Of a stretch of DNA of 64,000 nt, positions 723 through 43,211 are shown piece after piece (the stretch's first letter is position 1; each line of letters starts with the position of its first letter). Both the position numbers and the translations under genes were made by a program. The stretch is from an uncultured Geobacter sp. GTDB lineage: Bacteria; Desulfobacterota; Desulfuromonadia; Geobacterales; Geobacteraceae. Below the pieces are notes generated by a model. It was not told the DNA's origin. It ran no database searches and was given only the letters and a program-made list of their open reading frames with translations. The stretch lies in the NCBI GenBank assembly GCA_903915655.1, contig CAIWTU010000090.1, forward strand, positions 1-64,000. The letters are read 5' to 3'.

Positions 723-1790
723 CTACTGTGGGCTGTCGGGGAGGTATTGCTCGAACTGTTTTTTCTCCTGTGCACAACGATAGGCCTCTTCCGGCAAAAT
801 CCTTTTGGTCTTCAGCAGGTCCAGCAAATGCTGATCCATCAGCTGCATACCGTCCTTCCTCGCAGTCTGTATGATGGAAGGGATCTGGAAGGTCTTCCCT
901 TCGCGAATAAGGTTCGCAATAGCCGGGGTTCCAACCAGAATTTCAAATGCCGCAACGCGACCCTTCCCTTCAGCTACTTTCAGTAGCTGCTGACAGACAA
1001 CACCCTTCAGAGACTCCGACAGCATGGCGCGGATCTGCTCCTGACTGTCCCTTGGGAAAACGTCAATAATGCGGTCTATTGTCTTGGACGCAGAATTGGT
1101 ATGGAGGGTGCCGAAAACCAGGTGCCCCGTCTCGGCAGCGGTCATGGCTAGGCTGATCGTCTCCAGATCACGCATTTCACCCACGAGGATAACATCAGGA
1201 TCCTCCCTGAGCGCTGCCCGGAGCGCTGCGGTAAAGCTTTCCGAGTGTTCGCCGATCTGCCTCTGGTTCAGGAGCGAGAGTTTGTTCTCATGGATAAACT
1301 CCAGCGGATCTTCCAGGGTCAGGATATGCTCCCTGCGGCTGGAATTGATCAGGTCGATCATGGCGGCCAGAGTGGTGGACTTGCCTGAACCGGTGGGGCC
1401 GGTGACCAGCACGAGACCTTTTTTAAGCATCGTCATCTTTCGCACCCCTTCGGGCAAGGCAAGTTCGTCAGCAGTCAGTATCTTGCTCGGAATCAGGCGG
1501 AAGACGGCCGACACCCCTTTGTGCTGCATCATCATATTGCCGCGGAATCTGGCTAAATCAGGAATCGAGTAGGCAAAATCGAGATCTTTTTTTGCCTCGA
1601 ATTCACTCTTCTGCTTTTCCGAGAGGATTTCATACAAAAGAGCCTCTATCTCCTCATGAGACAGAGATTTAAAATTGAGACGAACCATTTCGCCATGCAG
1701 GCGAAAGATCGGCTGCGAGCCGCTGGAAAGATGGAGATCGGAAGCCCCCTGTTCTTTCATCATCTTGAAAAGACCGTCAATTCTTGCCAT
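723..1790 (-). CDS. pilT: Type IV pilus retraction ATPase PilT
   Basis: A hexameric cytoplasmic ATPase that powers pilus disassembly and twitching. The 355-residue length is typical. Visible motifs are Walker A GPTGSGKST (131-139), the Asp box around LTLEDPLEF (157-165), Walker B DPDVILVGEMRD (197-208), the His box TGHLVFGTLHT (221-231), and the PilT signature AIANLIRE at 290-297, where canonical PilT has AIRNLIRE. The start is supported by GGAGAGG just upstream. It lies 12 bases downstream of the degenerate PilB-like gene, so the two are probably co-transcribed. A second PilT paralogue is at 42051-43211. Which of the two is the main retraction motor cannot be told from sequence. Confidence 0.93.
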   Translation of the reverse strand: MARIDGLFKMMKEQGASDLHLSSGSQPIFRLHGEMVRLNFKSLSHEEIEALLYEILSEKQKSEFEAKKDLDFAYSIPDLARFRGNMMMQHKGVSAVFRLIPSKILTADELALPEGVRKMTMLKKGLVLVTGPTGSGKSTTLAAMIDLINSSRREHILTLEDPLEFIHENKLSLLNQRQIGEHSESFTAALRAALREDPDVILVGEMRDLETISLAMTAAETGHLVFGTLHTNSASKTIDRIIDVFPRDSQEQIRAMLSESLKGVVCQQLLKVAEGKGRVAAFEILVGTPAIANLIREGKTFQIPSIIQTARKDGMQLMDQHLLDLLKTKRILPEEAYRCAQEKKQFEQYLPDSPQ

Positions 1791-1802
1791 AATGCCTCTC
1801 CA

Positions 1803-3461
1803 TTAATGCTTCACAGAAACCAGAAATTCTTCCGGCGAGATCTCGCCGGCATTTAACAGTTCGATTCCTTCCTCTAGGAGACCTCGATATCCCTTCCCCC
1901 TGAGGTAGTGCAACAGCTCGCACCCTTCCTTCGACGCGGCAAAGAGCTCCACCGTTTCGTTATTGAAAAAAATGAGATCCAGGAGGTACTTTTTCCCCTT
2001 ATATCCAGTGTAACCGCAGGCAGAACAACCTGGGGAGGTAAAATAACCTGCTGCTGGAGTTGAGTCGGAAGGGATGAGCGCCTTTTCCTTCTCTGGAGGG
2101 AAATAGCTCTTTTTACAGAGGGGGCAGAGCAATCGGACCCCCCTGAAGGATACAATCCCCTTAACATATGCAAGAACGGGATAGTTTTGCTGAAAATAGA
2201 GAAGATGCCCCAGGGTATCAGCCAGATCACGGCAGGGAATCCCGCAAAGTGCAAGTTTGCCGCGCATTGCAACCCTGACAGCCGTTTTGAAAGAGCGGCT
2301 GTCAGATACGTCCTCAAGCACCAGAATGTCCGGATCGTGTTCAAGCGCCTCGGCAACGATCGATTCCATTTCAAACGGCGGAACCTTCTGGAAGGAAATA
2401 GAGGGAAAGCGTTTTTTCCCTCGCACGGCCAGATCCCCCAGTATCATGACGGTTTTATCCGAGGTCTCGGACTCATCAAGATAAAGGTTAATGATCCGGC
2501 AGAATTCATCCCTGTTGTCTGAACTGAACAGCACAATTCCCTGCCCGACGGCAAGCAACTCCTTGAAGCTCCGCATCGTCCCTTCGGGGAGGCCCAGCTC
2601 TTTTATGCTTTCGGGAAAAGAGATATGTTTATGCATTTTCACTGTTACATAATCACCCCCCTTGCCTTTCAGGGTAAAGATCTGAAAATAAAGCTTATCC
2701 CCTTTGTAGAGGAACGCCAAGATCCCTCTCGCGCTTATCTCTGTTGCGGCTTTCAGTCTGCCCAGCTTCCTGATCTGCAGCAACAGGTCCGGGTAATAGT
2801 CAACAGACAACCTGCCGATCTCCCGGGAGGAGTCACCTCGCCTGACGATTATGGCTACCAGATCACCCAGTGGCTGGAGTGAGAGTGACGTCAGCCTGTT
2901 TCTGGTGATGTACTGAAGCATATAGTTGAGGAAGGTAGCGCCGCTGATGTCTTTATTGATGCTTTCAAGATTTTTTGCCGTGAAACAGGGGGAAGAAAAC
3001 CCAAGCGTCTTCTCAATCTCGGCGGGACCGTAGAAAAGATCCTGCATCTCGCGAAGTTCGCGGATAATGGGCATGGAGACTGTCACACTGCATCCTGTCA
3101 CCTCTTCCACAGCCTCGATCGCTGCCACGTTCAACGGATCTGCAAGGGCAATGCTTATCTCGTCACCAGTCCGGAAGATCGGAATAAGATTGAATTTACG
3201 GGCAAGCGCCGCCGGGATCAGCTTCACAGAAGCGATGTCTATCATATCTTTTTTCAGCCGGATGTATGGAATATTCAACTGGTTGGACAATGCCCAGTCG
3301 ATGTCTTCCTGTGTAACGATTCCGAGTTTAACCAGCGCTTCACCGATACGGCAGCCCGATTTTTTCTGTTCATCCAGAGCCAACCTGATGTCTTCCTCGC
3401 TTATAATATGTGACTTGAACAGTACAGAACTTATCGACCCTTCTTTGACCAGACTTTCCAT
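1803..3461 (-). CDS. PilB/GspE-like protein with degenerate ATPase core
   Basis: The architecture is that of a pilus or secretion assembly ATPase. An MshEN/T2SSE N-terminal region (about 10-150, with the typical ALVKLGIVTQEDIDWALS stretch) precedes an ATPase-like half and a C-terminal zinc-type motif with Cys446, Cys449, Cys479 and Cys482. The Walker A position (about 306-320, GQGIVLFSSDNRDEF) lacks the GPTGSGKT sequence. The Walker B region reads HDPDILVLEDVSD rather than DPDIxxVGExRD. The frame is open for all 552 residues, with a strong AGGAGGT ribosome site, so the gene appears maintained rather than decaying. I infer a non-hydrolysing PilB paralogue that may scaffold or regulate the neighbouring PilT. 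No direct evidence of function is visible. Confidence 0.8.
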   Translation of the reverse strand: MESLVKEGSISSVLFKSHIISEEDIRLALDEQKKSGCRIGEALVKLGIVTQEDIDWALSNQLNIPYIRLKKDMIDIASVKLIPAALARKFNLIPIFRTGDEISIALADPLNVAAIEAVEEVTGCSVTVSMPIIRELREMQDLFYGPAEIEKTLGFSSPCFTAKNLESINKDISGATFLNYMLQYITRNRLTSLSLQPLGDLVAIIVRRGDSSREIGRLSVDYYPDLLLQIRKLGRLKAATEISARGILAFLYKGDKLYFQIFTLKGKGGDYVTVKMHKHISFPESIKELGLPEGTMRSFKELLAVGQGIVLFSSDNRDEFCRIINLYLDESETSDKTVMILGDLAVRGKKRFPSISFQKVPPFEMESIVAEALEHDPDILVLEDVSDSRSFKTAVRVAMRGKLALCGIPCRDLADTLGHLLYFQQNYPVLAYVKGIVSFRGVRLLCPLCKKSYFPPEKEKALIPSDSTPAAGYFTSPGCSACGYTGYKGKKYLLDLIFFNNETVELFAASKEGCELLHYLRGKGYRGLLEEGIELLNAGEISPEEFLVSVKH

Positions 3462-3610
3462 CTTTACCTCCTGACATAACCATATCGGCAGAACGAAGAA
3501 TAAATTAGAGCAAAAATTCCAACCATATGCTAGCCTGTAAAAAATTCAGGTTGCGTAACGTAACACCTCTCTCAACGGAAAGGTTGCGGGATGGAGCCAC
3601 AGGAGACAGC

Positions 3611-4615
3611 ATGCAAAGAAAAGCACTGGCCCTTCTATCGGGGGGCCTCGATTCAACCCTCGCTGTAAAAGTAATGTTGGAACAGGGGATACAGGTGGAG
3701 GCCCTTAATTTTACCTCTCCTTTCTGCACCTGTACAGGAAAAAACTCCGGCTGCACATCGGAAGCGGTTCGAGTTGCAAGCGAGCTCAACGTACCGATCA
3801 AGGTAATGAATAAGGGAGAGGAGTATCTGGAGATTGTCAGAAAGCCTAAACATGGCTACGGTAAAGGTATGAATCCCTGCATCGACTGCAGGATTTTCCT
3901 GTTGCGCAAGGCTAAGGAATACATGTCCGAATGCGGTGCGGATTTCGTCATCACCGGAGAGGTGCTCGGACAGCGACCGATGAGCCAGCGCCGCAACGCA
4001 CTCGAGCTCATCGAGCGGGAAAGTGGTCTTCAGGGGCTGTTACTCCGACCTCTTTCCGCAGGGCATTTCCCTGCCACTATTCCGGAGATCGAAGGGTGGG
4101 TTGACAGGAGCAAACTCCCCTCCATCCAGGGGCGGTCGCGCAAGGAGCAGATGGAACTGGCAGCGGAACTGGAGATAACGAATTATCCCTGTCCCGCCGG
4201 CGGATGTCTCCTTACTGAACTATCTTTCATATCAAAGATAAAAGATGTCTTCGACCATAGCGAAAAATCGAATGTACGTGATTTCCAGTTATTGAAAACC
4301 GGACGACACTTCCGTATCGGAAACGAGACCAAGGTTATCATCGGCCGCGACGAGGCCGATAATGATGCTCTGGAAAGAATGGCCCGGACAGATGAAGCTG
4401 CCATACGCTGGCTCGGCGGAAGTAGCCCGCTCGGCCTGGTTATCGGAACGCTGGACGAAAGCCTTCTGGACACTGCGGCAAAGATTCTCCTCCGCTATAC
4501 AAAGGCACCCATGGGGGGGGAGTGCCAGATCGGCGTCAGGCACGAAGGCGCCGAACGAGAGATCGTAACCCTGCACGAATTTGATGAAACAAGGATAGAA
4601 GAATTGAGAATTTAG
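3611..4615 (+). CDS. PP-loop tRNA thiolation-type enzyme with NFACT-R-like C-terminus
   Basis: Start chosen at ATG 3611 because AGGAGA lies 5 bases upstream and the similarity begins there. The PP-loop SGGLDS is at residues 10-15, as in ATP pyrophosphatases that adenylate tRNA bases before sulfur insertion (ThiI/MnmA group). Two cysteine pairs, Cys90/Cys93 (NPCIDC) and Cys194/Cys199 (YPCPAGGC), could bind metal or carry sulfur. From about residue 225 (FQLLKTGRHFRIG, then KVIIGRDEADNDAL) the sequence resembles the NFACT-R (DUF814) RNA-binding module. Such proteins are often annotated as ThiI-like or 2-thiouridylase-like. The exact tRNA base modified is unknown. The gene stands alone, divergent from the PilB-like gene. 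Confidence 0.75.
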   Translation: MQRKALALLSGGLDSTLAVKVMLEQGIQVEALNFTSPFCTCTGKNSGCTSEAVRVASELNVPIKVMNKGEEYLEIVRKPKHGYGKGMNPCIDCRIFLLRKAKEYMSECGADFVITGEVLGQRPMSQRRNALELIERESGLQGLLLRPLSAGHFPATIPEIEGWVDRSKLPSIQGRSRKEQMELAAELEITNYPCPAGGCLLTELSFISKIKDVFDHSEKSNVRDFQLLKTGRHFRIGNETKVIIGRDEADNDALERMARTDEAAIRWLGGSSPLGLVIGTLDESLLDTAAKILLRYTKAPMGGECQIGVRHEGAEREIVTLHEFDETRIEELRI

Positions 4616-42050: not shown

Positions 42051-43211
42051 TCAGAATTTTTCGATGGGGAGTGTCCCTGTCTCCGGCACTGTATCGGGTT
42101 TCTCCTCCTGAACGAACTGGTCCCAGGAGGCGTCGGAAACAGAGGATATTCCGGAAACCTTGAGGGCAAAATCATCCGGATGGGTTGACTGGCGAAGCGA
42201 CTCCTCGTAGGTGATGAGCTTCCGGGTGTAGAGCTGCATCAGGGATTGATCAAAGGTCTGCATCCCGTAGGAGGTGTACCCCTGGGCAATCGCATCCGTG
42301 ATCTGTTTGGTTTTTTCCTTATCGTCGATACACTCACGGATGCGGCCGGTGGAAATCATGACTTCAACTGCCGGTACCCGCCCCTTGCCATCTGCCTTCG
42401 GAACAAGCCGCTGGGAGATGACCCCCTTGAGAACCCCGGAAAGCTGCATCCTCACCTGACGTTGATGGTAGGGGGGGAAGACCGATACAATCCTGTTAAT
42501 CGTCTCGGCGGCATCAACCGTGTGCAGAGTGGACATCACCAGGTGGCCCGTCTCGGCGGCGGTAAGCGCCGTCTCGATGGTTTCCTGATCGCGCATCTCG
42601 CCAACCAGGATAACATCCGGATCCTGGCGCAATGCTCCTTTCAGTGCACTGCCGAAGGTCAGGGTATCAAAGCCGATCTCGCGTTGGCTGATGATGCTCC
42701 TCTTGTCCTTGTGGAGATACTCCACCGGGTCTTCTACGGTTATGATATTGCAGGTACGATTGTCATTGATATAATCAATCATCGCAGCCAGAGTGGTCGA
42801 TTTGCCGCAACCGGTAGTTCCCGTTACCAGGATGAGGCCGCGTTCTTCCATGCTCAGTTTTTTTAGAGCGGTCGGGAGGTTGAGGGCCTCAAAAGAGGGA
42901 ACACCGAAAGCGATGATACGAAATACCATGGCAACGGTTCCCCGCTGGCAGTAGGCGCTCACCCGGAACCGGCTGAGGCCCGTTATGCCATAGGAAAGAT
43001 CTACCTCGAAGTTCTCCTGGAAATGCTTCCGTTGACGATCATTCATCATCGAATCGGCAATTTCCCTGATGAGATCCGCAGCAAGACGGGGCGAATTGGG
43101 AATAGGGCGCAGCCTGCCGTCGATCCGGACAACCGGTTGCAGACCCGCCTTCATGTGGACGTCGGAAGCCTTACTTTTAACCGCTATATTCAGTATCTCG
43201 TTCAGTTCCAT
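42051..43211 (-). CDS. PilT-family twitching motility ATPase (second paralogue)
   Basis: A 386-residue PilT/PilU-like ATPase with SKASDVHMKAGLQPVVRIDG at the N-terminus, Walker A TGTTGCGKSTT and Asp box ITVEDPVEYLHKD. Walker B reads DPDVILVGEMRD, and the His box is TGHLVMSTLHTVDA. It lacks an exact AIRNLIRE; the equivalent region reads TGRIRECIDDKEKT. The tail after residue 350 is longer than in PilT. These features suggest the PilU-like or accessory retraction branch rather than the housekeeping PilT at 723-1790. It is embedded between recA and recX, as in related Geobacter-type genomes. Confidence 0.88.
   Translation of the reverse strand: MELNEILNIAVKSKASDVHMKAGLQPVVRIDGRLRPIPNSPRLAADLIREIADSMMNDRQRKHFQENFEVDLSYGITGLSRFRVSAYCQRGTVAMVFRIIAFGVPSFEALNLPTALKKLSMEERGLILVTGTTGCGKSTTLAAMIDYINDNRTCNIITVEDPVEYLHKDKRSIISQREIGFDTLTFGSALKGALRQDPDVILVGEMRDQETIETALTAAETGHLVMSTLHTVDAAETINRIVSVFPPYHQRQVRMQLSGVLKGVISQRLVPKADGKGRVPAVEVMISTGRIRECIDDKEKTKQITDAIAQGYTSYGMQTFDQSLMQLYTRKLITYEESLRQSTHPDDFALKVSGISSVSDASWDQFVQEEKPDTVPETGTLPIEKF

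Follow-up and report, generated by a model that had tools for sequence, protein, structure and literature searches.

The closest described relatives of the protein considered here are the motor ATPases PilB and PilF, for which structures exist from Geobacter (PilB; 5TSG, 5TSH and 5ZFR) and Thermus (PilF; 5OIU and 6F8L), MshE of Vibrio cholerae (5HTL), and PilU, a PilT-dependent accessory retraction ATPase. Motors for extension and for retraction compete for a shared stator, and PilB is predicted to touch PilM through its N1 (MshEN) domain (PMC11656802). The protein, termed pseudo-PilB (PPB), is encoded on a 64,000-nucleotide stretch of DNA from an uncultured Geobacter sp. (the window). PPB shares with PilB and PilF the MshEN-N2-CTD domain order and the tetra-cysteine zinc site, and PilB, like PPB, adjoins a pilT gene in this genome. 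In contrast to PilB and PilF, PPB lacks Walker A, the Asp box and the His box, its Walker B is altered, its N-terminal half is the conserved part, and it branches as a clade of its own from a long stem (100/100). With MshE it shares two 24-residue motifs spaced 5 residues apart, in which Gln32, Gln61, Leu58 and Gly40 are kept; unlike MshE, it lacks R9 and usually G18 in motif I, and in the window copy G11 is missing as well. MshE works as an ATPase, which the sequence of PPB precludes. PilU is comparable in that it belongs to the motor family, has an accessory role and is encoded next to a PilT, but it is PilT-like and presumed to be a working ATPase, whereas PPB is PilB-like and degenerate. 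PPB does not show the intact Walker A and the set of PilT-like domains that mark a PilU-type protein.

A probable counterpart has been described in Geobacter sulfurreducens, where GSU0435 precedes pilT3 (GSU0436); besides mshE, its published names include PilB (PilB/PulE/GspE) family ATPase. This gene was called mshE and described as a homologue of pilin-polymerisation ATPases, and the GSU0435-pilT3 order was reported to be conserved in two other Geobacter species (PMC5065972). A pilT3 mutant of G. sulfurreducens was delayed in attachment, and among the four PilTs of this organism PilT3 alone lowered the hyperpiliation of a Pseudomonas pilT mutant (PMC5065972). Co-transcription of GSU0435 and pilT3 was judged unlikely in the 2016 paper. 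GSU0435 was later listed as a PilB homologue (26%) that possibly compensates for PilB when pilB is deleted (PMC8557921). GSU0435 and PPB are alike in their position before pilT3, their low identity to PilB (26% as published for GSU0435) and their bacterial family; from this synteny and family membership, not from an alignment, we infer that GSU0435 is the PPB orthologue. The published GSU0435 primer sequences matched none of four relatives. In the full-text literature, subscription papers lying outside this scope, no report was found that mshE/GSU0435 lacks ATPase motifs, and no description was found of a pseudoATPase controlling a pilus motor in the PilT/VirB11 superfamily.

The features of the PPB locus are collected in Table 1. 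The PPB reading frame is unbroken, and homology is continuous across residues 1-552. Pfam recognizes both MshEN (2.4e-13) and T2SSE (1.4e-16, compared with 1.1e-48 for the T2SSE domain of the neighbouring PilT), so that PPB has a T2SSE fold with an N-terminal MshEN (T2SSE_N) domain. It falls far below the curated equivalog models for PilB (110 bits; cut-off 676) and GspE (87 bits; cut-off 630). PilT3 scores 479 bits on NCBIfam pilT_fam, above the cut-off of 319. Elsewhere in the window, a second PilT-family gene (42180-43190, minus strand), one of three PilTs found in the genome, is 45% identical to PilT3. A reading frame with an Hpt phosphotransfer domain lies at the contig end (47-628, plus strand) and is probably the tail of a hybrid histidine kinase.

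Table 1. Positions in the window of PPB, its sites and its neighbours.
Feature	Position	Strand	Remarks
pilT3	723..1790	-	Intact PilT-type retraction ATPase: GPTGSGKST, EDPLE, GEMRD, TLHTN, AIANLIRE
Shine-Dalgarno GGAGAGG of pilT3	1795-1801	-	pilT3's own ribosome site
PPB (pseudo-PilB)	1803..3461	-	552 aa, ATG start; PilB/GspE fold without ATPase motifs
Tetra-cysteine zinc site	2016..2126	-	Cys446/449/479/482; invariant in 75/75
Lost His box site	2226..2249	-	Residues 405-412; canonical STLHTND, CGIPCRD in window copy
Altered Walker B	2310..2327	-	Residues 379-384; hhhhGE to ILVLED (alignment)
Lost Asp box site	2424..2438	-	Residues 342-346; EDPVE to GDLAV (alignment)
Lost P-loop site	2499..2522	-	Residues 314-321, SDNRDEFC in window; family consensus SRxxxERC; predicted helical from 317
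MshEN (N1) domain	3027..3440	-	Residues 8-145; best-conserved part of PPB
MshEN 24-residue motif II	3279..3350	-	Residues 38-61; complete (RIG...Q)
MshEN 24-residue motif I	3366..3437	-	Residues 9-32; atypical in window: R9S, G11S, G18H
Shine-Dalgarno GGAGG of PPB	3467..3471	-	Read from the sequence; five bases 5' of ATG
PP-loop (SGGLDS) gene	3611..4615	+	Divergent; marks ancestral pilT3 neighbourhood

Loss of the catalytic motifs was followed in an alignment that set 75 distinct PPB orthologues against 13 canonical PilB/GspE proteins, of which four are from the same genome and nine from relatives. Walker A (GxxxxGK[ST]) is present in all 13 canonical proteins and in none of the 75 PPBs, where the canonical GPTGSGKT has become (S/G)R(D/N)xxERC by consensus. 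The position of the Walker lysine is occupied by Arg in 72 of the 75, and by Phe in the window copy. The Asp-box site begins with Gly in every member and ends with Gly in 69, and Walker B ends in ED instead of the canonical GE, the catalytic Glu being missing. The arginine set is only partly retained, and no substitute P-loop was found elsewhere in the protein. PPB thus lacks the residues needed to bind or hydrolyse ATP. The preliminary description had recognized the replaced Walker A and altered Walker B, and the loss extends to the Asp box, the His box and part of the arginine set. It had, however, placed the replaced motif at GQGIVLFS, which is an ordinary strand leading into the true site. 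The retention of MshEN, fold and zinc cysteines, also proposed there, is borne out by Pfam, by AlphaFold2 and by the alignment. Origin of PPB by a recent local mutation or a frameshift is ruled out by the absence of a P-loop from all orthologues and by the continuous homology; the intact frame and strong ribosome site of the preliminary description agree with this gene structure.

An AlphaFold2 model of the PPB monomer, made from the family alignment, retains the PilB fold with a mean pLDDT of 91.7, and within the former P-loop a predicted helix begins at residue 317. The top PDB matches of the model are Thermus PilF and Geobacter PilB, with a probability of 1.00 at 18-22% identity. Among PPBs, the two halves of MshEN average 70% and 60% pairwise identity; N2 averages 39% and the ATPase domain (CTD) 46%. 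This is the reverse of the canonical PilB/GspE set, a mixture of paralogues, where conservation lies in the ATPase domain. Values of dN/dS for close pairs are about 0.04-0.28 for PPB (30 closest pairs) and 0.02-0.12 for PilT3, so PPB evolves faster than its neighbour; by domain, it is 0.14 in MshEN and 0.19-0.21 elsewhere. The alignment has 36 invariant columns. Together, the dN/dS values, invariant columns and domain identities indicate that PPB is maintained, chiefly at its N-terminal domain. The motif-less state is fixed across the whole order and is under purifying selection, and the earlier suggestion that selection keeps a non-catalytic form is upheld by this order-wide conservation, by degenerate P-loops in 75/75, by dN/dS well below 1 and by the intact predicted fold.

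PPB was found in 112 of the 141 genomes of the order, and is intact in almost all of these and broken or lost in some lineages. The 112 comprise 111 genomes plus G049 (L191, G049:C273), in which only a 178-codon MshEN reading frame stands directly 5' of pilT3. This frame codes for about 165 residues from its likely Met, and pilT3 starts 38 bp past its stop codon; it is either a natural truncation or an assembly artefact. PPB is also split across two reading frames in L093 (G116, a single-contig genome), L094 (G059) and G032. In other orders of the class, only matches at E 1e-36 to 1e-39 were obtained, and those inspected are canonical PilBs. Matches outside the order (1e-36 to 1e-53) were considered as distant PPBs and ruled out, as all that were inspected carry GPTGxGK and are ordinary PilB/GspE. 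A plasmid search gave nothing beyond ordinary GspE/PilB-like matches at 20-23%.

PPB has a single origin (100/100 in a tree of 18 rows), and its placing among PilB, MshE and GspE is marked by the long stem and by weak deep nodes. PilT3 is the older gene: its orthologues occur in other orders at 73-76% identity, and there the PP-loop gene directly adjoins pilT3, with no PPB, in all 18 inspected loci. In the window's own family, PPB stands between these two genes. Because pilT3 lies directly beside the same PP-loop gene in related orders, PPB was probably inserted between them; on the simplest history, this took place at the base of the order and was followed by several losses. The PP-loop (SGGLDS) protein is kept beside pilT3 across the class and may be a tRNA-thiolation enzyme.

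PPB precedes pilT3 on the same strand in all inspected loci, with a median gap of 21 bp; in the window, pilT3 starts 12 bp past the PPB stop codon. PilT3 orthologues of the order are sharply divided from its other PilTs, being at least 78-79% identical to the window's PilT3 where the others reach at most 57%. PilT3 without PPB was found in 11 of the 141 genomes and neither gene in 18, counts that are phylogenetically non-independent. No clear case of PPB without PilT3 was found among these genomes, G130 and G137 having been checked by hand and G045 being only partly assessable as its PPB sits at a contig end. In G037 (L019 / L067), an in-frame TAG interrupts pilT3 and PPB is intact. The pair is retained with two different upstream neighbours, DnaB preceding it in most members of another family (f4). 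The phylum search also detected both genes in one genome belonging to a different class (G302, L199; 290-kb contig), in which PilT3 is up to 84% identical to those of this order and only 72-75% to those of the sister orders, and PPB is 45% identical. Neither the PP-loop gene nor DnaB is present near it. Horizontal transfer of the cassette is likely here, and the two genes thus appear to travel together. A link to PilT had been proposed from adjacency in the preliminary description; it now has strong genomic support in the two-gene unit, in the one-sided co-occurrence and in the joint transfer of the pair to another class.

The MshEN domain had been suggested to make PPB a c-di-GMP sensor. PPB scores 47.4 bits on the NCBIfam c-di-GMP motif model (cut-off 38), and the published contact residues (PMC5013675; PMC11731258) were compared position by position in the 75 PPBs. 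Gln32 and Gly40 are kept in all 75, Arg38, Leu58 and Gly11 in 74 and Gln61 in 72. The position of Arg9 is Ser or Thr in 68 of the 75, and that of Gly18 is usually Gln. The window PPB is the sole member without Gly11, having Ser in its place. Since G11I abolished c-di-GMP binding by VcMshE of Vibrio, binding is plausible for the family, in which most contact positions are kept despite the replacement of R9 and G18, and doubtful for the window copy with its additional G11S. Conservation in MshEN also extends beyond the published contact list to E52, D53, D55 and W56, which suggests a protein interface.

PPB is probably a non-motor partner of PilT3 and not the ATPase as which it is annotated. The reading favoured here, at a probability of roughly 55%, is that PPB derives from PilB and serves PilT3 as an adaptor or brake without hydrolysing ATP. 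A PilB-shaped, non-hydrolysing protein tied to one retraction motor would fit docking at the stator in either capacity. PPB may dock through MshEN (N1) on the stator socket of PilM/GspL type that extension motors use, on the PilT3 ring, or on both, and would act there as a ring or adaptor that hydrolyses no ATP. Its effect would then be either to recruit PilT3 to the base of the pilus or pseudopilus, or to secure that base against both extension and free-running retraction. A ligand bound to MshEN might serve as a switch, with c-di-GMP as the candidate ligand in lineages keeping the site; in the window's lineage such a switch is probably weakened or lost. PPB is not a required part of the motor, since PilT3 persists without it in several genomes and the G. 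sulfurreducens PilT3 restored retraction in Pseudomonas on its own. More tentatively, PPB may be a dead extension motor whose MshEN holds the pilus base in PilB's place and gates PilT3 on ligand.

Other roles were weighed against the adaptor or brake. PPB could be a dead protomer in hexamers of PilB or PilT3 that tunes motor speed, as the PilB fold kept in N2 and CTD and the tight gene linkage to pilT3 would allow; this is unlikely, because conservation is lowest in N2 (39%) and CTD (46%), which form the PilB protomer interface, and only some of the arginines that should reach the neighbour's ATP remain. PilB in Myxococcus has a signalling role toward exopolysaccharide and biofilm control. PPB might similarly signal through MshEN, with the ATPase half as a scaffold and the link to pilT3 a regulatory one. 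The strong conservation of MshEN, its retention alone in G049 and the delayed attachment of the pilT3 mutant (PMC5065972) are consistent with such a role, which is nevertheless improbable given the invariant zinc site, the fold kept in the C-terminal half and a retraction motor as the ever-present partner.

That PPB still binds or hydrolyses nucleotide at a non-standard site, with Arg at the lysine position and ED at Walker B, is very unlikely. Arg320 does co-occur with an acid at 383 in 70 of the 75 PPBs, but the P-loop GK[ST], the Asp-box glutamate and the His-box histidine are all gone, a helix is predicted at the phosphate-loop site, and Phe replaces Arg320 in the window copy. Least credible is a decaying pseudogene or neutral leftover. 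The faster evolution relative to PilT3 and the frame breaks in G116, G059 and G032 make decay possible in single lineages; for the family it is refuted by intact genes in almost all of the 112 genomes, dN/dS of 0.04-0.28 in the 30 closest pairs and the invariant columns.

Filaments and pili of Geobacter stand at the centre of the discussion about extracellular electron transfer. If GSU0435 is the PPB orthologue, which its synteny suggests, a role as spare motor is excluded, and PPB would offer a lead to why PilT3 works in a foreign host yet apparently does not drive retraction at home. More generally, PPB would be a stable pseudoenzyme in a motor-ATPase family, inserted beside a motor gene and moved with it as a cassette.
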